Origin: Nitrospirota bacterium
GTDB taxonomy: Bacteria > Nitrospirota > Nitrospiria > JACQBW01
Assembly (NCBI GenBank): GCA_016178585.1
Contig: JACOTA010000060.1
Coordinates: 1 to 33,123 of the forward strand
DNA length: 33,123 bases
Direction of reading: 5' to 3'
Shown here: positions 12,945-22,563 of the stretch, piece after piece
Position numbering within the stretch: the stretch's first letter is position 1
Layout of the letters: every line of letters begins with the position of its first letter
Made by a program: the position numbers and the translations under genes
The notes under the pieces: generated by a model
Databases searched by the model: none
The model's input: the letters and a program-made list of their open reading frames with translations, nothing else
What the model was told of the DNA's origin: nothing

Positions 12945-14654
12945 CTATTTTTTCTTTTTTTCGAATTTCCGACGGAGCCAAAATTCAAAACCAATGACGA
13001 CCAGCACCACAACCGGCGGGATAACATAAACGTTGTTCGGTACCGGCGGTTTCAGGATCGTATAATACCAGGTCGAGATAGAGGTTTTTGCACCCTTATC
13101 ACCGTTATTCCCATCCCAGATATAAAAGGAAGTTGGAATATATTGACCCAAAGTAAATTGGACTTCGTTATCTTTGTCGTTCGTGAGCCGGTCACGTTTT
13201 AAGATGACTTTCCAACGCCCGTCTTTATATTCCGAGGCAACGATCTTTACATTTTTTCCATCTCTGGGTGTTAACGGATTAGAAATTCCTTTTCCTGTAT
13301 ACTCGTTAATACCGCCCGCAGCATTCCATTTCCATAGATCAACAGGGTTCTTCTCATCTCCGAAAATAAACCTTGGTTTTTCGGGTGCAGCAAGCTGTTC
13401 CCACTTTGCCGGAAACTGGATTCCAATTGAATCATTATAGACAGACCAGCCATCCTGGCCCTTAACGGCAACAGGCTCACCCCCTGGAGGAACTTCCTTA
13501 ACATCGGCCGGCTGAAGTTCGTAATTTCCTGATTCTGGTTGAGCAACACTCTTATTTCGATCATCCCACTCAAAATAATAGGCTATTTCCTTATCATTAT
13601 AAAGGGATTTAACCCAAACCTCATCAACCAGACGGACAAAATTCCTCGGCTTTTCCGTAATTTGCCCTGCTAAACCAACATAGGTAGATTCTGCCGAGAC
13701 CCATTTTGGGTCATTCGTGTCAGACGGTATTTCACCTTTGTTGTAACCCGATTTAACCACAAATTGCAAGACTGGTTTCGCGGTCAAAGGGTCAATTTTC
13801 TTTGGCGGGCAAAGTGAAATAACGAAGTTTGCCACATTCCATCTATCTTCAGGAGATAAAACGTCCGCAAAGCTTGGCATCGGCGTACCGTTTAAGCCTG
13901 TCGACACTTCTCTGAAAATATTTTTTGGGTTGTACGGATCCTCGCGGTTACCTCTGAAATTCCAACATTTACGAAGATCGGCAGGAAGGATCGGGAATCC
14001 CCATTCATCTTTCTGGGTTTTGTTCCCATCGCCTCTTCCATCATTACCATGGCATTCTACGCACTTTCCTTTGGTCATGTAAACCAGTTTGCCCTTTTCG
14101 ATGCTTTCCTTTGAGGTCGCAACCTGTTTTCCAAATTCAATTTTATGAAATTCCTCGGTCTCCTTATCGAGAAAATTTCTGTCTTTCACAAGTTCGGTTC
14201 GGACGAACCGCACAACCTGCATACGTTCTTTGTCGCTTAAGATCCCTGCCCATGAAGGCATGGCTGACCCAGGTAGACCGTGTGTAACGGTCAAGAAAAG
14301 ATCCTCTTCTGTCGGAAGTTCACCCGAAGCCGTATGTCTTATTTTAAATGTCCCCGCGTTAAAATTTCTAGGCCTCGGCCAAAGGCGGTCAGCCGCGGGT
14401 CCGTCTCCCGCGCCGGTTGGCCCATGACACCAAACGCATTTTCTAAAATAAATATTCTTGCCCGACTCTAAATCTTCCGGGCTCGCTTTATCAGGCCTTC
14501 CAGGCGAAACTGAAACTTTCTCGGCGCCCGCTTTCTTCTCCTCCGCTGACCCTAACACGATGAAAAACAGGGAAAAGAAGGAAAAAGCAGCCAAACCGGC
14601 CAGGCTTAAGAGAAATGGTTTGCTTTTAATCCGATACCAGATGTCTTTTTTCAT
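12945..14654 (-). CDS. Di-haem cytochrome c with ethylbenzene-dehydrogenase-type haem-binding domain
   Basis: 569 residues. N-terminal signal anchor (about 12-35). Two cytochrome c domains carry CVWCH at 73-77 and CVECH near 200, each with a downstream Met in a GSAMPSW or GTPMPSF turn as sixth ligand. Residues about 285-530 match the b-haem-binding gamma-subunit domain of ethylbenzene dehydrogenase and NxrC-like proteins; the 'EKNPVDLWKWNA' block is its hallmark. A C-terminal helix (about 545-562) ends in RRKFEKKKK, so the protein is fixed to the membrane at both ends. GGGAGA precedes the ATG. It probably relays electrons from the periplasm to or from the bd-like oxidase in the same cluster. 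Fusion of the c and b domains in one chain is unusual; both are well supported. Confidence 0.9.
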   Translation of the reverse strand: MKKDIWYRIKSKPFLLSLAGLAAFSFFSLFFIVLGSAEEKKAGAEKVSVSPGRPDKASPEDLESGKNIYFRKCVWCHGPTGAGDGPAADRLWPRPRNFNAGTFKIRHTASGELPTEEDLFLTVTHGLPGSAMPSWAGILSDKERMQVVRFVRTELVKDRNFLDKETEEFHKIEFGKQVATSKESIEKGKLVYMTKGKCVECHGNDGRGDGNKTQKDEWGFPILPADLRKCWNFRGNREDPYNPKNIFREVSTGLNGTPMPSFADVLSPEDRWNVANFVISLCPPKKIDPLTAKPVLQFVVKSGYNKGEIPSDTNDPKWVSAESTYVGLAGQITEKPRNFVRLVDEVWVKSLYNDKEIAYYFEWDDRNKSVAQPESGNYELQPADVKEVPPGGEPVAVKGQDGWSVYNDSIGIQFPAKWEQLAAPEKPRFIFGDEKNPVDLWKWNAAGGINEYTGKGISNPLTPRDGKNVKIVASEYKDGRWKVILKRDRLTNDKDNEVQFTLGQYIPTSFYIWDGNNGDKGAKTSISTWYYTILKPPVPNNVYVIPPVVVLVVIGFEFWLRRKFEKKKK

Positions 14655-14789: not shown

Positions 14790-15710
14790 TTAATCCCATG
14801 TCCTTGGATAATAACCGGTATGCCAGTATTCGAATTCAATCACCTTCCACATTTCATCGGTGGTCAAATGTTTTTCCCAGGGAGGCATTGCAGAGGCCCA
14901 TGGGAAACCTTCTCTTGGCAGACCAATTCCCCCTTTTGCCACACGCCAGAAAACAAAGGTTTCCTGCAATTGCGCGATGGTGCCGGGATCGGTAAAGTTA
15001 GCCGGAATCGGGTTAAAGGCAAAAGCAAACATTCCCCGGGCATCCAGGTTATCGCCATGGCAAAAATGACAATTCTGGAAAAATATTTCGCCGCCTTCCC
15101 TGACATATTTCATGTAGGGGGGAGCTTTTTCATCAAAAGGATTGGCCTTTAAATATTTGTTTTCGATTCCTTCGGAATATTTACCCTGTTCATCAACTCT
15201 GAAAGGACTTTTAGCTTCTTGTAAAACCATATTTGAACCATGGACCTGGATAGCGCCAGGAGGGGCGGGATGCACGGTTCGTAATTCAATCGGTTCCTGA
15301 AAATTTGGTTTTATAAAATTATAGGCTCCGATTCCAGCAAGAACCGGAAAAACACCAAACGTGATCATTCGAACAGTTTTAAACCCGGGAGTCCGTGCCT
15401 CCAGGGTTTTGATAATCGGATCTTGAAACTCGTTCCAGGAGGAGTCTGTGCTCGAAAGCAGCAAGAAAACCACAAGGCAGATTAAACCCATATAGGTATA
15501 CAGCAAAGCTGATGGAATGGGCGGAAAGATTACAAATTTGAAAATGAAGTAAGCTGCCAGAACAAATAAAATGCCCTGGAAAAACCGCGAAACTCCTCTT
15601 CCAAAGGTTTTTTTCAAGAAATAGTTCCCTGCTAAAAACAAAATCAGAGTCAAAATTTCTATCAATATTAACTCTATGGGCATTGCGCCTGGTATCCACA
15701 ATCCTTTCAC
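14790..15710 (-). CDS. Membrane protein with C-terminal mono-haem cytochrome c domain
   Basis: 306 residues. Three to four hydrophobic helices (about 11-28, 40-58, 62-85, 115-135) precede a periplasmic cytochrome c domain with CHFCH near residue 213 and a Met in ASAMPPW as sixth ligand. The segment 'LPREGFPWASAMPPWEKHLTTDEMWKVIEFE' is typical of class I c domains next to oxidases. The start is GTG at 15710 with GAGGGGG upstream. It is cotranscribed with its neighbours, separated by a repeat on one side. A likely job is passing electrons between a membrane quinol/b-haem site and the soluble or di-haem cytochrome, though no haem b ligands are obvious. Confidence 0.85.
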   Translation of the reverse strand: MKGLWIPGAMPIELILIEILTLILFLAGNYFLKKTFGRGVSRFFQGILFVLAAYFIFKFVIFPPIPSALLYTYMGLICLVVFLLLSSTDSSWNEFQDPIIKTLEARTPGFKTVRMITFGVFPVLAGIGAYNFIKPNFQEPIELRTVHPAPPGAIQVHGSNMVLQEAKSPFRVDEQGKYSEGIENKYLKANPFDEKAPPYMKYVREGGEIFFQNCHFCHGDNLDARGMFAFAFNPIPANFTDPGTIAQLQETFVFWRVAKGGIGLPREGFPWASAMPPWEKHLTTDEMWKVIEFEYWHTGYYPRTWD

Positions 15711-15786: not shown

Positions 15787-16950
15787 TTATCCCCCTGGCG
15801 GAGGCGCCATACCATCTTTCTTTGCCACACCCGCATCAATGGATAATAAAAAATCAGCCAGATTCGAGATCGCCTCATAAGTCATTTTTTTCGAAAAATC
15901 TTTTGGCATCGGCGATTCCGTTGGAGTTGCCTTTGGCGCAAAACCTGGAACGATAAACGCGTTTGGATTGACAATCGATTCCATAATATACTCTTTAGGG
16001 GATGCCGCGTGCGCCGCTCCGGCTTTCACCCGTGCCAGATACTCTGGCGAGGATATCCGTTTTTTAGCATTTGTTCCTTCAATCAGCATCGGGCCAACGG
16101 TGCCAAAACGCGCTGCCGTTGTCGGAATCTTATGACAGGCGACACACCCCATTTTCATAATGATATCCTGCGGTTTTTCCGCGCCGGTTAAAATAACCGG
16201 ACCTTTCGGAGCACCGCCGGCGGACGCTTCAGCAGAGGCAGGCTTTGGCCGGTCAGACTCGGGAATGAATTTTTCATATGCCGCCCTGATCTCTTTTGGG
16301 GTAGGCGGGGTTTCCCCTTCGCGAACATAGAGCCACGTATCCACGGCAATTTGTTCATCAATGGATAGACCAATCGGCGCCTTGTGGATGGTCGGCATCG
16401 GGCTTTCTTTATCGTTTGAACCCTTCACCCCAAATCCGGGGACCACAAAACAGGCGGGACAGGAATGTGATTCAGCAATATATTCTTCGGCTGTCGCGGC
16501 TCTTCCGCACCCTGAACAGGATTCTTTAACACTGGTAACCTGGGTTTTATAGATAGGGCTTTTGATAGTCGCTTCCGCTCTCTTTGCAATACCGGATAAA
16601 TTCGGAGCCCTTTCGCTTAATGCTCCGGCCTTAAAACCGTGACAGAGAGGACATTGCCCCTTACCCGCGCCTGTCATTGTTCCAGGATCGTCGAAAATGA
16701 TTTTTGCGCCCATTTCCGCGAGTTTATCGGAAGACATGGCATCGACATTACCCAGGGACGCGGATGTTTCAGGCGGAACTTCCCCTCTCGTCTGAGGAAG
16801 CCAGTTTGCGTAACTTGCAAAACCGCCCGTCACCAGCATAAAGAATCCCATTGTTAAGATCAGGGATTGCGCTCCTTTTAATTTAGAAGAGATGGCCATT
16901 AAAAATAACGCTATCCCCAACATACTTAAAGCTAAAGTTAACTTATCCAC
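15787..16950 (-). CDS. Di-haem cytochrome c with extra four-cysteine site
   Basis: 387 residues. Two N-terminal helices (about 4-22, 28-48). Haem motifs are CPLCH at 100-104 and CVACH at 269-273; Met185 and a Met near 353, both in ESPMP, are the probable sixth ligands. The two halves are related: 'EYIxES...F(V/I)VPGF...TESPMP' recurs. The first half uniquely holds two CxxC pairs, Cys145/148 (CSGCGR) and Cys164/167 (CPACF), with no following His. That arrangement looks like a Zn or Fe site built into the cytochrome. A PASAEASAGG stretch (about 237-246) between the halves is low complexity. The start is GTG with AAGGAG. It follows the bd-like oxidase after a hairpin and belongs to the same block. 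Confidence 0.85.
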   Translation of the reverse strand: MDKLTLALSMLGIALFLMAISSKLKGAQSLILTMGFFMLVTGGFASYANWLPQTRGEVPPETSASLGNVDAMSSDKLAEMGAKIIFDDPGTMTGAGKGQCPLCHGFKAGALSERAPNLSGIAKRAEATIKSPIYKTQVTSVKESCSGCGRAATAEEYIAESHSCPACFVVPGFGVKGSNDKESPMPTIHKAPIGLSIDEQIAVDTWLYVREGETPPTPKEIRAAYEKFIPESDRPKPASAEASAGGAPKGPVILTGAEKPQDIIMKMGCVACHKIPTTAARFGTVGPMLIEGTNAKKRISSPEYLARVKAGAAHAASPKEYIMESIVNPNAFIVPGFAPKATPTESPMPKDFSKKMTYEAISNLADFLLSIDAGVAKKDGMAPPPGG

Positions 16951-17069: not shown

Positions 17070-19004
17070 TTACTCAGAGGCTCCTGCGATAGCATGTCCG
17101 CCGGTGGTTTTAACTTTAACCGCCGGAGAGTCTTCCATCGAAGGAACATCCCTGTGGCCGGCAGAAAGTTCTGCTAACCAGAAGACAAAAAGTGAAAAAA
17201 TCCAAAAAATAACCACGTTCACCGACATCACGTTAGACGCAAAGCCAATCGGGTGGGTAAACGCCCAAGGCGAGTTGTCCCGCATAATTTCCATGGCATG
17301 CCAGAACAAACGGACTGAAGAGCGGATATACCCCATTAAGGCCATCAACCAGGTAAATGAAACCCCTAAAGCGAACATGGCAAATTGAGAACGGTTGGAA
17401 ATGGTTCCCCATAAGATAGGGCCGGTCGATTTAGCCCCTTTTAGCATCGCCAGGTTCAGGGCCGTTCCCGCAAATAAACAGGTCAATGTCCCGGCCACCT
17501 GGGGAACCGAGAGCCCGACCCTGACGTTTGCAGGGATGTAATATCCATAAATGGCAAGCCACCAGTTATTGAAGAGCGCCACGCCAAACATACTGAATAA
17601 AAGGGCATTTCCGAGGTTAGCCCATTTCACCGTGATAATTTTATTTGCTCTTTGATAAATAATAAAAGCAAAAATGGTGATCATCAGCATGGTGTTCACG
17701 GCGCCATTTTTCGCGGACATGACGCCAAAGTTACCCACCACCGGATGTTGTTGTCCCCCGATCGCCTTTAACTCCGAAGCCTTCATGACCAGAGTGTGAG
17801 GGGTTAACCAGACCAGAAAAGCGACAGTCATTCCGAAGAAAACATACTTAATAACACGGTCATACCGCTCTGCGCCTTTCATTCTCTGCATCCCGTTGAA
17901 AAGGTAGTAAACCACCGCAAAGAACAAGGCGCCGATTAAGACAGCCTGAAGAATAAAGAGCCAGGCCAACAAACCGCCCATCAGGGTAATTCCCATCTGT
18001 TGACGATAAGCATAAACCTCTCTCATCAGCCAATAACCGGCGAAAGGAAGGGGAATAAGGGAACCGACCGCGAAGAACATGGCAATATACCCCATCCAGT
18101 CATAATAAGCCTTTTGCTCTTTTGTTTTGGCGGAAAGAAATTTATACGCCGAATAGGCGGCGACGATTCCACCTCCAAACACCATGTTCCCGATAATTCT
18201 ATGGATGTTAATCGGATTCCAGAGCGCGCTATGGAGCAAGTGGGCATAATTACCAAGAAATTGTCCCTTTTCATCAACGCCGGAAGGGGCCATCATGAAA
18301 GCAAGCCAGGAATTTGCCAGCATCATCAAAGTCGTTCCAAACACGTTTAACAAAATTCCCAATGTGGCATGGACCCATTTCAAAAAACCCTCTTCCATGC
18401 TATGCCATCCATAATAGTAAATATAAAGGGTTCCGCTTTCTGCCAGGAAGAGGAGCGCATAGATGTGCATGAAGGGCCTGAACAGGGAGGCAACATAACC
18501 AAAAACACCCGGATAGAGTGTAATAAAGCCGAAAATTAAGAGCCCCCCTAAAATGGCGGTCACGGAATAGGCCGTTAAACTGATCTTGATAAAATCGTAG
18601 GCTAATTGGTCATATCGTTTACTGGCCACCGGATCTTTCACGAGAAGAGCGACAAGCTCAATGACCATACAAAAGATGGGAACCGCCAGAACAAAACTCC
18701 CAAAGAAAAGATGCTGTTGGGCCACGGTCCAGATCAGAAGACGGCTTTCACCGAACACACCGGGCAACTTCGTGCTCGGATAATCCTGCGCGGTTAAATG
18801 GGGCGCCGGAGGACCAGAGACTGGACCATCGGTTTTATAATAAACGTCTTTTCCTGTAGGAGGAGGACCTGCCGGGGCAGCGGCATCTTCAGCAACTGCC
18901 GTCGTGGATTGAAGGAGTGGGAGAACAAAAGAAAAAATTGAAAGGAACATCATCCCTAAAAGCGCGAGGGACACATATTTTTTTGATTTTTTTAGGGTCT
19001 TCAT
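17070..19004 (-). CDS. bd-like oxidase subunit I (CydA-related)
   Basis: 644 residues from ATG at 19004, chosen because GGAG lies six bases upstream; ATG at 19016 has none. A signal-like helix (residues about 10-35) and a Pro/Ala-rich stretch precede a CydA-type core: QQHLFFGSF with the first haem-ligand His, LFLAESGTLY with the conserved Glu, and HRIIGN with a second His. Some fourteen helices are predicted, more than the usual nine of CydA, and the quinol Q-loop is short. No CydB gene lies nearby. The closest known group is the 'bd-like' oxidases of Nitrospira and relatives, thought to act as terminal oxidase, but their activity is unproven. Flanked by two small membrane peptides upstream and cytochromes c downstream. 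Confidence 0.88.
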   Translation of the reverse strand: MKTLKKSKKYVSLALLGMMFLSIFSFVLPLLQSTTAVAEDAAAPAGPPPTGKDVYYKTDGPVSGPPAPHLTAQDYPSTKLPGVFGESRLLIWTVAQQHLFFGSFVLAVPIFCMVIELVALLVKDPVASKRYDQLAYDFIKISLTAYSVTAILGGLLIFGFITLYPGVFGYVASLFRPFMHIYALLFLAESGTLYIYYYGWHSMEEGFLKWVHATLGILLNVFGTTLMMLANSWLAFMMAPSGVDEKGQFLGNYAHLLHSALWNPINIHRIIGNMVFGGGIVAAYSAYKFLSAKTKEQKAYYDWMGYIAMFFAVGSLIPLPFAGYWLMREVYAYRQQMGITLMGGLLAWLFILQAVLIGALFFAVVYYLFNGMQRMKGAERYDRVIKYVFFGMTVAFLVWLTPHTLVMKASELKAIGGQQHPVVGNFGVMSAKNGAVNTMLMITIFAFIIYQRANKIITVKWANLGNALLFSMFGVALFNNWWLAIYGYYIPANVRVGLSVPQVAGTLTCLFAGTALNLAMLKGAKSTGPILWGTISNRSQFAMFALGVSFTWLMALMGYIRSSVRLFWHAMEIMRDNSPWAFTHPIGFASNVMSVNVVIFWIFSLFVFWLAELSAGHRDVPSMEDSPAVKVKTTGGHAIAGASE

Positions 19005-19075
19005 ATTGGACTCCATTGAAATTTTAAGTTCTTCTAACGTCCTGAATCCTTGCGTCGATTACCAAAAATAACGAT

Positions 19076-19204
19076 TTAAAATACGCTTCTTATGAATTCA
19101 AAATATTTCAATCCCTGGATACCCATGAGGAACCAATCTAAAAATTGGAAATAACAGAACCAACCCGCGATTCCAATAAGAACACCCACAGCGATATTAT
19201 TCAT
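19076..19204 (-). CDS. 42-residue membrane peptide before bd-like oxidase
   Basis: Translates to MNNIAVGVLIGIAGWFCYFQ, then FLDWFLMGIQGLKYFEFIRS and VF, ending at TAA. One hydrophobic helix covers residues about 4-20; the rest is amphipathic with aromatic residues. GGGGGAT lies six bases before the ATG. It lies 71 bases upstream of the oxidase gene, the same place small CydX-type subunits take near other bd oxidases (CydX itself follows cydAB). No family recognised. Confidence 0.65.
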   Translation of the reverse strand: MNNIAVGVLIGIAGWFCYFQFLDWFLMGIQGLKYFEFIRSVF

Positions 19205-19270
19205 AAAAATCCCCCGTAAATTAAAATTAAAAAATAGGGTATAAACCCCCATTTACTTTAAAAGTAGAAC

Positions 19271-19363
19271 TTATATGTTTCCCAACCAGAAAATAAATAA
19301 GATAGAAATAATTCCTACCGCTATATAAAGAATCGGACCGGCTTGTTTCGGCATTTTGTCCAT
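19271..19363 (-). CDS. 30-residue membrane peptide before bd-like oxidase
   Basis: Translates to MDKMPKQAGPILYIAVGIIS followed by ILFIFWLGNI. One membrane helix fills residues about 11-28. The ribosome site CGAGGGA is well placed. First gene after a good promoter (19488-19516), with 66 bases to the 42-residue peptide. Size and topology resemble CydX or CcoQ-like accessory subunits; the sequence matches neither closely, so a new small oxidase subunit is proposed. Confidence 0.65.
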   Translation of the reverse strand: MDKMPKQAGPILYIAVGIISILFIFWLGNI

Positions 19364-19487: not shown

Positions 19488-19516
19488 AATGTACTACACT
19501 CTTTTTTAGTTGTCAA
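19488..19516 (-). promoter_or_regulatory. Sigma-70-type promoter for the oxidase operon
   Basis: On the minus strand TTGACA (19511-19516), a 17-base spacer and TACATT (19488-19493, 4 of 6 consensus bases) make a good match. The -35 box overlaps the TGA stop of the SUMF1 gene just upstream. The predicted leader to the first small gene is about 120 bases. Confidence 0.65.
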
Positions 19517-20424
19517 GCACTTTTCGCACATCTAAATCCGATTGTTACATCCCGGTATTCAGGAAGCATTTTAAACCGGATCGTGGCCTCTCCCCTAAGA
19601 ATAGAATCGTTCCAGGACCCGCCCCGAATCACTTTAGATTGACCTGTTTCCGGTCCGGAAGGATTTAAGTTTAACAACGTTTTATACGCATTTTGGTCAT
19701 ACCAGTCATTAACCCATTCCATCACGTTTCCAGCCATATCATAAACACCAAGAGGGCTTTTATCCATTTTAAAACTCCCGACGGGGGCGGTATAAAAATA
19801 GCCGTCTTTATCCCCCGCGAAATTAGCATTGAGCAAATTTTCTTCGTTTCCCCAAGGCCATTTTTGCTGATTCACACCCTTTGCGGCTTTTTCCCATTCG
19901 GCCTCAGTGGGAAGCCTTTTCTTTTTCCATAAGCAATAATCTTTCGCATCTTCCCAGGAAACCCCGACAACGGGATTGTAAGGATTCATCAAAAGAGGCA
20001 GTCCCTCTGAACCGACTGCCAGATATCCGGCTAACCGCGGTTTTCGATGTCCGGTTTTAGCGACAAACTCATAGTATTGCGCAAATGTCGTTTCATATTT
20101 ATCAATAGCGTAGACCTGTAAAAAAACCTTCCGGCCAGGGCGGACGGAAAAATCTCCTGAAGAATCGCCCAGCGTAAAATAACCCGCAGGAATAGCGACC
20201 ATCGTCTCATATTCCTCATTTATTTTTACAACTTTAATATTGGCTTCTGCTTTTGCAAAACCTTCCGTTGTCTTTTTAATTTTTTCAGAGAGGGGGGTGA
20301 AAGGTTCGTCCTGCGGCCTGGAGGCCGGGGTGGCGGTCTTGCTGCCCCGTTTGATAGCCACCTGGATAACCACCACAAAAACCAGCATGATGGAAAAGAA
20401 AATATAAACGAGGTATTTGTTCAA
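19513..20424 (-). CDS. Membrane-anchored SUMF1-fold protein, no FGE cysteines
   Basis: 303 residues: an N-terminal helix (5-24), a charged linker, then a SUMF1/FGE-like domain (about 70-300) with GYFTLGD, YEFVAKTGH, GVSWEDAKDYCLWKKKRLPTEAEWE, NVMEWVNDWY and RGGSWND. The motif that in true formylglycine-generating enzymes carries the two catalytic copper-binding cysteines (GGSW...C...C) has none here; the Cys present is FRCA near the end. It is therefore unlikely to make formylglycine, and is more like the ligand-binding SUMF1 proteins found beside respiratory genes. The start is TTG at 20424 with no strong ribosome site. It sits with a sister copy at 21670-22563 and three small membrane proteins. 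Confidence 0.85.
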   Translation of the reverse strand: MNKYLVYIFFSIMLVFVVVIQVAIKRGSKTATPASRPQDEPFTPLSEKIKKTTEGFAKAEANIKVVKINEEYETMVAIPAGYFTLGDSSGDFSVRPGRKVFLQVYAIDKYETTFAQYYEFVAKTGHRKPRLAGYLAVGSEGLPLLMNPYNPVVGVSWEDAKDYCLWKKKRLPTEAEWEKAAKGVNQQKWPWGNEENLLNANFAGDKDGYFYTAPVGSFKMDKSPLGVYDMAGNVMEWVNDWYDQNAYKTLLNLNPSGPETGQSKVIRGGSWNDSILRGEATIRFKMLPEYRDVTIGFRCAKSA

Positions 20425-20437
20425 AATAGAGGCCTAA

Positions 20438-20632
20438 TTAATAAGCTTTTGAATCGCTTTTTGCCATCGTCCCCGTCCCGGTTTCTATTGCATCCGATGT
20501 GTTCTTGAGCCGTGAACGATCCGGGTTTTTTTGAGCATTTTTCCGTTCGACCATCTGACCCGCAAATAAACCGGCTAAAAACACCGCAGATGCGTAAAAT
20601 GTGACATAAAAGGCGTACAAAAAATGTTTCAT
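20438..20632 (-). CDS. Small membrane protein, G-x3-G-Q-x2-ER family, copy 1
   Basis: 64 residues. One helix at about 7-25 runs into FLAGLFAGQMVERKN, then a polar tail without known motif. GGAGAG precedes the ATG by 7 bases. The segment F-L-x-G-x3-G-Q-x2-E-R recurs in the next two genes upstream, which shows these three are related or share a contact site. It lies between the first SUMF1 gene and its relatives; function unknown. Confidence 0.65.
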   Translation of the reverse strand: MKHFLYAFYVTFYASAVFLAGLFAGQMVERKNAQKNPDRSRLKNTSDAIETGTGTMAKSDSKAY

Positions 20633-20659: not shown

Positions 20660-20902
20660 CTAAAAAGGGTTTGTTTTGACTTCCGTCCCCGCTTTCGTAA
20701 GGGCCGATTTTTTCATTTTAGCCAACTGATTCAACCAGCGGCGCTCCAGCCTCTGACCATATTGCATGCCAAGCAAAAAAAAAGTTGAAGTAAATAAAAT
20801 CATATATCGGACATAAAGCTTTCCCAGGTACTGATCAATGATTATCACCGCCAGGGATATGATGATAAAGAAAATAATATAAAATTTAGTTTTAAAGCCC
20901 AT
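20660..20902 (-). CDS. Small two-helix membrane protein, same motif, copy 2
   Basis: 80 residues with helices at about 6-24 and 31-48, the second ending in FLLGMQYGQRLERRW, the motif shared with its two neighbours. The C-terminal tail is basic. Its ATG overlaps the stop of the upstream gene by one base (TAATG), so translation is coupled. No family recognised. Confidence 0.65.
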   Translation of the reverse strand: MGFKTKFYIIFFIIISLAVIIIDQYLGKLYVRYMILFTSTFFLLGMQYGQRLERRWLNQLAKMKKSALTKAGTEVKTNPF

Positions 20903-21054
20903 TAGTTTTCCCGGGAACTTCCATTTAGCAATGCAATCCGGGCCCGCTCCTTTTTCCTTCCCGTCCGGAATCCCATGATAAAAAAGAAGGAGGTCATGGC
21001 AATCACGGATAATGGATATAATAAATAATGCCCCACCAATGAATAGTATCCCAT
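20902..21054 (-). CDS. Small membrane protein, same motif, copy 3
   Basis: 50 residues from ATG at 21054, chosen because AAGGA lies seven bases upstream; a longer reading from 21108 lacks a ribosome site. A helix at about 10-28 ends in FIMGFRTGRKKERAR, the shared G-x3-G-[QR]-x2-ER pattern. First gene of the run toward the SUMF1 gene. Confidence 0.6.
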   Translation of the reverse strand: MGYYSLVGHYLLYPLSVIAMTSFFFIMGFRTGRKKERARIALLNGSSREN

Positions 21055-21121: not shown

Positions 21122-21264
21122 CCCAAGAACATAGCGATAGAAAGTTGTCATTGCGAGCGAAGCGAAGCAATCTCGCCATCGTGAACCGAGATCGCCACGC
21201 ACCCTGCGGGCGCTCGCGATGACAGGCAAAACAAGGAGTTACAAATCCTATCGCTGTTCTTGGG
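21122..21264. mobile_element. MITE-like element, copy 2 (best preserved ends)
   Basis: 143 bp. The left end CCCAAGAACATAGCGATAG and the right end CCTATCGCTGTTCTTGGG are inverted repeats of about 18 bp with one extra base. The inner arms TGTCATTGCGAGC and GCTCGCGATGACA form a second hairpin. TTTAT flanks it on both sides (21117-21121 and 21265-21269), a 5-bp target duplication. No gene inside. Confidence 0.85.
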
Positions 21265-21336: not shown

Positions 21337-21473
21337 CCCAAGAACAGAGTTAGAAAGCTGTCATTGCGAACAAAGTGAAGCAATCTCAAGACTTTACGAT
21401 AAGATTGCCACGCACCCTTCGGTGCTCGCAATGACATGATTAATAAGTGGGTGCGAAGTCTATCGCTGGTCTT
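21337..21473. mobile_element. MITE-like element, copy 3 (right end lost)
   Basis: Starts CCCAAGAACAGAGTTAG and matches copy 4 (27393-27562) almost base for base up to CTATCGCTGGTCTT, then diverges, so the last segment with the right terminal repeat is missing. Confidence 0.75.
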
Positions 21474-21546: not shown

Positions 21547-21675
21547 ATGGAAACTGAAGTTAAAGAAAAGAAGGCTAGAAATAAAGCCATTTTCGATTAT
21601 ATTATTTTGTTGGGAATGGTGGTGAACATCATTTTTGCCGTTTTCATGGTTCTCTATTATTTCAATCTTTTATAA
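21547..21675 (+). CDS. Small single-helix membrane protein
   Basis: 42 residues starting at ATG 21547 (METEVKEKKARNKAIFDYII...). A charged N-terminus precedes one membrane helix (about 17-40). The reading frame is open further upstream, into the MITE copy, but ATG here with GAGG roughly 15 bases upstream is the better start, although the ribosome site is weak. The end overlaps the converging SUMF1 gene by six bases. The helix does not carry the G-x3-G-ER motif of the three proteins on the other strand. Confidence 0.45.
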   Translation: METEVKEKKARNKAIFDYIILLGMVVNIIFAVFMVLYYFNLL

Positions 21676-22563
21676 ATCCTTTGCGCACCGAAACCCGATC
21701 ACAGCGCTGGTCTGATGGGGCGCCGCCTGAAATCTTTTCGCCGTCCTGACGTTCATTGATCCATCATCCCAGCTTCCCCCCCGGTATCCCTTAAACTTGC
21801 CCTTTTCAGGCCCCCTGGGATTTTGAAACGGCCCGGACAGGTAATAATTTCCATCATACCAGTCTTCAACCCACTCCCCGATATTCCCGGCCATATCATA
21901 AAGGCCGTAGGGACTCCTCCCTTTTTCAAACTTTCCCGGAGGCGCGGTATATTTAAACCCATCCTCTTCCCCCTGAACATTTGCCGCTTTGTCCACCCAT
22001 TCGTTTCCCCACGGCCATTTCAAGCCCCGCTCGCCACGGGCGGCCTTTTCCCATTCCGCTTCAGTGGGGAGCCTTTTGCCCGCCCATTGACAATAGTTAC
22101 GGGCTTCGGTCCACGAAACCCCGTTAACAGGCTGATCATCCTTTGTAATCAAAGCGGGATTGTCCATAAAAACCGGAACGACCGGTTTTGCATCCGACAC
22201 AATGGCTTTTAAATAATTTTTATACTGGCCATGAGTAACCTCGTAAAGATCCATATAGAATGAGTTCAAAAAAATCGTTCTTTGGGGACTTTCATCGGGA
22301 TCACTCTCCACGGGAGGACTTCCCATAACAAAGGTTCCTTCTGATACAAGAACCATGGGCGCCCCATCTACAACCCCATTGATTATTTTTAATCCCGCAA
22401 AACGCATGGGGTCACGAACCTCCACGACTTCCTCTTTTTTAACCACGAAAGCTTTTTTCTCGTTTTGATACCCTTTGATTCCCTCCCACACCAGCGTCAC
22501 AATCATTAGAATGAATGCAACCAGGGCAGAAAAAATCCCGTAATAGAGTGCGTCTTTTTTCAT
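21670..22563 (-). CDS. Second membrane-anchored SUMF1-fold protein
   Basis: 297 residues: a helix at 7-28, a short linker, then a SUMF1 domain (about 65-295) with EGTFVMGSPP, YEVTHGQYKNY, GVSWTEARNYCQWAGKRLPTEAEWEKAARG, NIGEWVEDWYDGNYY and RGGSWDDG. As in the copy at 19513-20424, the region after GGSW lacks the FGE catalytic cysteines. It is a paralogue of that gene, though the two differ at many positions, so the split is not recent. It begins just past a strong terminator, so it probably has its own promoter. Shared surroundings suggest a partner role to the small membrane proteins. Confidence 0.85.
   Translation of the reverse strand: MKKDALYYGIFSALVAFILMIVTLVWEGIKGYQNEKKAFVVKKEEVVEVRDPMRFAGLKIINGVVDGAPMVLVSEGTFVMGSPPVESDPDESPQRTIFLNSFYMDLYEVTHGQYKNYLKAIVSDAKPVVPVFMDNPALITKDDQPVNGVSWTEARNYCQWAGKRLPTEAEWEKAARGERGLKWPWGNEWVDKAANVQGEEDGFKYTAPPGKFEKGRSPYGLYDMAGNIGEWVEDWYDGNYYLSGPFQNPRGPEKGKFKGYRGGSWDDGSMNVRTAKRFQAAPHQTSAVIGFRCAKDL

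Follow-up and report, generated by a model that had tools for sequence, protein, structure and literature searches.

Three families of small membrane proteins linked to a bd-like terminal oxidase: candidate accessory subunits

The oxidase gene and its cassette

The window, by which we mean the whole stretch of DNA analysed, comprises 33,123 nt of contig JACOTA010000060.1 of a Nitrospirota bacterium (GCA_016178585.1, positions 1 to 33,123, forward strand). A bd-like oxidase gene of the OR-N type lies on its minus strand (17070..19016), and the product matches the CydA profile PF01654 with an E-value of 5e-12 over profile positions 2-240. Translation may start at the ATG at 19016 or at the ATG at 19004, the latter having the better Shine-Dalgarno sequence. 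The AlphaFold model of the oxidase (pLDDT 81, pTM 0.80) contains about 14 membrane helices. A Foldseek search with this model revealed that the best PDB matches are all CydA/AppC, with an E-value of 2.7e-6 and a probability of 1.00, indicating that the predicted fold is CydA-like. In addition, many His, Glu and Met columns are invariant in the oxidase alignment, which was not mapped residue by residue onto the heme ligands.

Three cytochrome genes follow on the same strand in an order conserved in relatives: a c-type cytochrome immediately after the oxidase (15787..16950, PF00034), a membrane c-type cytochrome with a cbb3-III-like domain (14790..15710, PF13442), and a c-type cytochrome with an EB_dh domain (12945..14654, PF13442 and PF09459), the positional counterpart of Nitrospira alt_NxrC_1. 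The order of oxidase, two cytochromes c and alt_NxrC_1 is that of bd-like_2, the proposed complex IV of N. moscoviensis (PMC6606698). Since the gene order in the window matches this published cluster, we label the oxidase as the OR-N2/NIDE0901 (bd-like_2) type. The assignment rests on gene order and on a tree of the fetched homologues, without comparison to reference OR-N sequences; fold and distribution also agree with those of the published bd-like_2 enzyme. The bd-like oxidases have been described as lacking the Q-loop (PMC3578206).

The genome to which the window belongs (96% complete) contains one CydA homologue, and searches of it for CydB (PF02322) and for a recognisable heme-copper subunit I (COX1) were negative. 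The two other members of its family likewise gave one CydA-type match each. Among bd and heme-copper types, the oxidase is the only recognisable terminal oxidase of this genome; alternative oxidase was outside the search. Published models pair OR-N2 with the OR-N1 protein CydA' to give CydAA' in Nitrospirales and Nitrospinota (PMC12342949, PMC10839748). In contrast, as the present genome has no second CydA, such an OR-N1/OR-N2 heterodimer cannot form here from known parts.

ORF1 and ORF2 upstream of the oxidase gene

Two small ORFs precede the oxidase gene on the minus strand. ORF1 (19271..19363, from ATG at 19363 to TAA at 19271) encodes 30 residues, MDKMPKQAGPILYIAVGIISILFIFWLGNI, and ORF2 (19076..19204, from ATG at 19204 to TAA at 19076) encodes 42 residues, MNNIAVGVLIGIAGWFCYFQFLDWFLMGIQGLKYFEFIRSVF. 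Both products are predicted single-helix membrane proteins, each with a single hydrophobic stretch of Kyte-Doolittle 19-mer value 2.3 (ORF1) or about 2.0 (ORF2 frame). Shine-Dalgarno-like sequences are found at cgaggg-aaac-ATG (GAGGG) for ORF1 and cggggg-attttt-ATG (GGGGGA) for ORF2. An earlier note on this DNA had described two such ORFs, each with a ribosome site and one membrane helix, lying in order just before a bd-like oxidase gene; the coordinates, the ribosome sites and the hydrophobic stretches were confirmed, and the oxidase gene is indeed the next one.

The ORF1 family carries the motif (A)GP.(L/I)(F/Y)...ffyWF, which in the alignment takes the form (A)GP.lF....v...fF.WF with the G and W invariant. 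The ORF2 family carries F..lD...M..QGL, of which F, D and G were invariant in the first alignment. Comparison of the window with its two family members yields dN of 0.16-0.23 for ORF1 and 0.17-0.20 for ORF2, with dS about 1 or saturated in both cases. Homologues of both ORFs precede this oxidase, in unchanged order, in Nitrospirota, Pseudomonadota (Gallionella- and Ferrigenium-type, Rhodospirillales and Thiothrix), Myxococcota and Thermodesulfobacteriota, and same-position homologues were found in dozens of genomes of several phyla. The earlier note had called for a search of these ORFs in relatives, and the frames proved to be intact, under purifying selection and tightly linked to the oxidase gene. 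Judged by substitution pattern and conserved position, ORF1 and ORF2 are genuine protein-coding genes under purifying selection. Short hydrophobic ORFs in AT-rich DNA are frequent by chance, and both frames might merely be open by accident in an AT-rich stretch between genes. However, dN lies far below dS and homologues occupy the same place in dozens of genomes, so that ORF1 and ORF2 are far more than chance. With multi-phylum conservation and genome-wide linkage (see below), this possibility has already been refuted and retains practically no weight.

In the Nitrospiraceae-type ORF1 (loci L015-L030 and L032), a conserved terminal QCPC (CxC) is predicted to be periplasmic, possibly forming a metal site or a disulfide. 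It is absent in the lineage of the window.

The two ORFs had also been placed behind a good promoter at the head of the oxidase operon. A sigma-70-like candidate, TTGACA-N17-TACATT (19488..19516, minus strand, 10 of 12 matches), is present ahead of ORF1, but promoter-like sites are no commoner in the region than in shuffled sequences (8 versus 6.1 ± 3.0). The ORFs do precede the oxidase gene; the start of the transcription unit is nonetheless unsettled, because the same-strand upstream gene ends at 19513, within the promoter candidate, leaving the head of the operon unproven. Between ORF1 and ORF2 lies a weak terminator-like hairpin (19254-19232), the terminator scan being not above shuffles. 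Such a hairpin, together with small hydrophobic ORFs ahead of an operon, might point to regulatory leader peptides or small toxins (e.g. type I) located upstream of the oxidase by chance. Yet amino-acid motifs that persist across phyla at saturated synonymous sites are not a trait of leaders or toxins, the ORFs occur in one copy per genome at one locus, and Rfam gave no match, which makes this explanation very improbable. The lack of an Rfam match also led us to reject a riboswitch or any other RNA element here.

ORF3, a third member of the set

The earlier note had overlooked a third conserved peptide, ORF3, and the restriction of the trio to one oxidase subfamily with its absence from paralogues. 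ORF3 lies on the plus strand of the window (21547..21675) and encodes a predicted single-helix membrane protein of 42 residues, METEVKEKKARNKAIFDYIILLGMVVNIIFAVFMVLYYFNLL. Its 3' end overlaps the 3' end of an FGE-sulfatase-like gene on the minus strand (21670..22563). The family motif is D.(I/V)(I/V)..GM.(V/I)N.......YY, and dN between the window and its relatives is about 0.1 with saturated dS.

Members of the ORF3 family are present in most of the oxidase loci. In Gallionella-type loci and in other Nitrospirota classes the genes are collinear on one strand in the order ORF3-ORF1-ORF2-oxidase, and most Nitrospiria, Rhodospirillales and Myxococcota have ORF3 just upstream on the opposite strand. 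ORF3 and ORF1 are separated by an FGE-like gene and small membrane ORFs in the window and in its nearer relatives. Based on this shared neighbourhood and conservation, ORF3 is taken to belong with ORF1 and ORF2 as one set.

Of 67 loci, 32 have a TANNNT hexamer 4-10 nt ahead of the ORF3 start, compared with 3 of 78 for ORF1 and 1 of 82 for ORF2. Its presence in Pseudomonadota loci (e.g. L040, L045 and L052) suggests a leaderless ORF3 mRNA there. One proteobacterial contig (L088) carries a different bd-like oxidase (42% identity) and, about 5 kb past it, an ORF3 homologue.

Linkage to the oxidase across genomes

Sixty oxidase-gene loci were taken from a bacterial genome collection, and 58 related whole genomes were searched in six frames. 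Matches to ORF1, ORF2 and ORF3 were obtained in 36, 42 and 42 of these genomes, respectively, with exactly one match in every positive genome. In all positives but one, ORF1 and ORF2 share the strand of the oxidase match and precede it by 252-456 nt and 48-295 nt, respectively; in the exception (G001), another contig carries both at its end. ORF3 resides on the oxidase contig in 36 of its 42 genomes, 477-3347 nt upstream and on the opposite strand in 35 of the 36; in the remaining six it is on other contigs, mostly but not always near contig ends. The first HMM round was negative for ORF1 and ORF2 in five Nitrospirota families. The upstream regions there hold divergent versions, and most absences in the 58-genome search therefore reflect detection limits. 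Examples from apparently negative genomes include an ORF1 reading MDQQQGVKLGKVIFLVTLIFCSWAIWYISAPPPGFGH, an ORF2 ending in YYYFLDWVMMGPMQNLPFPYK and an ORF3 containing ...PLFDLFIIVGLIFNGLMIIFFLLYWLELI.

With a wider alignment, 296 Nitrospirota genomes were searched for ORF2, revealing it in 115, a strong oxidase match in 118 and both in 113. In the two genomes with ORF2 only, ORF1 lies beside ORF2; one has an adjoining OR-N gene at 50% identity (G117), and in the other the contig ends there (G101). Among the five with the oxidase only, two have merely paralogue-like scores (G235 and G290), one has a partial match (G011), one has a match that begins at contig base 33 (G045), and one is unresolved (G277). 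In the genomes searched, each small-ORF family is thus represented by a single gene per positive genome, which with few exceptions lies at the oxidase locus.

Restriction to one oxidase subfamily

A script detected ORF2 for 88 of the 90 subfamily oxidase genes having at least 450 nt upstream. One miss is an artefact of start annotation, the oxidase frame starting too far upstream (L056), and the other is a true exception (L014). Four oxidase loci (L038, L070, L075 and L079) yielded no ORF1. Upstream of the 25 paralogous oxidase genes examined (29-52% identity), which were assigned from their neighbourhoods to bd-like_1, bd-like_3 and bd-like_4, neither ORF1 nor ORF2 was detected (0 of 25). On the oxidase protein tree, the presence of the trio requires 3 changes when L014 is scored as lacking it, and 2 changes versus 22.4 in shuffles when L014 is scored as positive. 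The simplest reading is one gain and two losses of the trio. As placed on this tree, the trio marks one oxidase subfamily.

The true exceptions are additional oxidase copies, which lack the cytochrome genes as well as the trio; those in L134, L137, L138 and L139 show 61-66% identity. Beside the L137 copy lie molybdopterin and FeS genes of the kind expected in an alternative complex III cluster, a setting that resembles the published account of an OR-N oxidase adjoining such a cluster (PMC12342949). The loci without ORF1 and the extra copies without the trio imply that the oxidase fold can do without these proteins in at least some settings.

Comparison with known small oxidase subunits

We compared 86 members of the three families with Pfam and NCBIfam at E <= 1, and the family profiles with all PDB chains at E <= 10. 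No match to the CydX, CoxIIa or FixQ families and nothing significant was obtained from Pfam and NCBIfam, and no oxidase small subunit was retrieved from PDB. One of 30 ORF1 members showed a weak, non-significant FixP_N match (E 0.012). Membership in CydX, CoxIIa or CcoQ was therefore rejected, nothing significant having appeared in Pfam, NCBIfam or PDB, and a likeness of ORF1 to ba3-IIa (K..G......FWLG) noticed by eye was unsupported by the family searches. Two criteria for the functional class of single-helix accessory oxidase subunits that sequence can address, fewer than 60 aa with one transmembrane helix and conserved linkage to an oxidase gene, are fulfilled, the median lengths being 37, 38 and 34 aa for ORF1, ORF2 and ORF3. 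Positive charges prevail on the N-side in 64 of 77 ORF1 and 65 of 67 ORF3 sequences, the remainder being ties; ORF1 and ORF3 are accordingly predicted to have the N-terminus inside, ORF2 being less clear.

Similar to the trio, CydX, AppX and CydS are single-helix proteins of about 30-40 aa encoded with a CydA-type oxidase, and CydX/CydS are needed for assembly and stability (PMC8951039). However, they have no detectable sequence match here, where three families are encoded upstream of the oxidase gene. CydX is reported from only a subset of the qOR1 quinol oxidases, and in E. coli bd-I it makes up the dimer interface (PMC13189123). Its family goes with canonical quinol-oxidising CydA and CydB, whereas the window oxidase is of the OR-N type in a genome lacking CydB. 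A second single-helix subunit of E. coli bd-I, CydH/CydY (YnhF), is located on CydA and is reported to block an oxygen entry route (PMC8951039); it shares the single helix packed on CydA, but is encoded away from the cyd operon and has no sequence match to the trio. Subunit IIa of ba3 (CbaD/CoxIIa) is a single helix of 34-41 aa whose gene lies just upstream of an oxidase subunit gene and long remained unannotated (PMC3128077). It resembles the trio in size, gene position and having been missed in annotation, but is part of a heme-copper oxidase, is thought to replace a lost subunit II helix, and its CoxIIa family is unmatched. CcoQ/FixQ of cbb3 is likewise a small single-helix accessory subunit, but of a heme-copper oxidase, and FixQ is unmatched. 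Small subunits are not mentioned in the portions of the literature on bd-like oxidases available to us, and an earlier mention is not excluded. With that reservation, the proposed role is of a known kind, and what appears to be new is the trio of families and its association with OR-N oxidases.

Proposed role of ORF1-ORF3

ORF1-ORF3 are conserved coding genes that occur singly in each positive genome, accompany one oxidase subfamily and are missing next to its paralogues. As real genes kept beside the oxidase in many phyla, they probably encode unrecognised oxidase subunits. We propose, with good though incomplete confidence, that they are single-helix accessory subunits of the OR-N bd-like terminal oxidase with a CydX-like role, belonging to new sequence families. 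The earlier note had likewise suggested small subunits comparable in role to CydX/CcoQ and unlike them in sequence, a suggestion now supported by the conserved frames, the oxidase linkage and the absence of family matches, with physical association inferred. Translation, binding to the oxidase, and stabilisation or any other function are also inferences, in the absence of biochemical, proteomic or ribosome-profiling evidence.

In the proposed mechanism, three unrelated families would take the role that CydX, CydS and CydH have in cytochrome bd and IIa has in ba3. ORF1 and ORF3, and less clearly ORF2, would insert with a cytoplasmic N-terminus, and their helices might pack against the CydA-like protein of roughly 14 helices. 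In an oxidase without CydB and, in the genome of the window, without a second CydA, the small helices may stabilise the heme-binding core. They could also close lateral openings and fill the surfaces covered by CydB and CydX-type subunits in canonical enzymes, and might keep the oxidase aligned with the c-type cytochromes feeding it. A further, more tentative proposal, which we hold to be somewhat short of even, is that the oxidase of Nitrospira and numerous other bacteria consists of a single CydA-like protein with ORF1-ORF3 as its invariant partners in place of CydB (and, in lineages like the present one, also of CydA'), the OR-N1 paralogue being a later, lineage-specific duplicate that lost the trio.

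Several points weigh against a subunit role: conserved adjacency is also compatible with assembly factors or regulators, some oxidase loci lack ORF1 or the whole trio, and ORF3 is separately transcribed in most Nitrospiria and on a contig other than that of the oxidase in 6 of 42 genomes. The trio might thus be transient assembly factors or chaperones, acting for example in heme insertion or maturation and remaining outside the finished enzyme. Some small membrane proteins do act in oxidase assembly, the requirement for CydX including assembly itself (PMC8951039); the loss of ORF1 from a few loci and the frequent separate transcription unit of ORF3 would also fit. However, three one-per-genome families tied to one subfamily look more like a structural fit, and the paralogues would need the same maturation, yet lack the trio. 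We therefore regard assembly factors as improbable.

The trio might instead couple the oxidase to its neighbours (the c-type cytochromes and EB_dh/alt-NxrC) or mediate oligomerisation rather than stabilise the core. Such a role would overlap with the subunit proposal, of which it is a variant. The Nitrospirota cassette runs on into two cytochromes and the EB_dh cytochrome, the extra oxidase copies without those cytochromes are also without the trio, and the dimer interface formed by CydX in E. coli bd-I (PMC13189123) offers a precedent for oligomerisation. The paralogues bd-like_3 and bd-like_4, however, have the same kinds of downstream cytochromes and no small ORFs. Coupling or oligomerisation as the main role is unlikely, though less so than transient assembly factors.

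The proposal that ORF1-ORF3 are accessory subunits bears on an open question, namely which subunits compose the bd-like terminal oxidase thought to be used by Nitrospira. Nitrospira are the most widespread nitrite oxidisers. In the parts of the published descriptions available to us, their bd-like oxidase comprises one or two CydA-like proteins. Accompanying the oxidase across phyla, the three small proteins provide concrete candidate partners of the Nitrospira-type enzyme. In addition, that the present genome has just one CydA homologue, with neither CydB nor a heme-copper oxidase recognisable, suggests that OR-N1 and OR-N2 do not pair universally. As the trio illustrates, respiratory proteins of fewer than 50 aa can escape both gene callers and family databases.

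Other features of the cassette

The upstream neighbour of ORF1 on the minus strand is an FGE-sulfatase-like (SUMF1-domain) gene (19513..20424, PF03781, E 1e-51), whose product has an N-terminal hydrophobic segment and which is conserved in the cassette. The gene that overlaps ORF3 (21670..22563) is the second FGE-sulfatase-like gene of the cassette (PF03781, E 1e-55). The pair of SUMF1-domain genes is conserved in the oxidase cassette of Nitrospirota, and its presence at an oxidase locus is unexplained. Three further small membrane ORFs are arranged in a row on the minus strand between ORF3 and the first FGE-like gene (20438-20632, 20660-20902 and about 20902-21054). The first two gave no match in Pfam and have homologues in four relatives (G002, G006, G007 and G012). 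Between these small ORFs and ORF3, inspection by eye revealed two similar intergenic stretches (about 21140-21235 and 21357-21436), which start with tgtcattgcga, end with atgacag or atgacat, and resemble an interspersed repeat.
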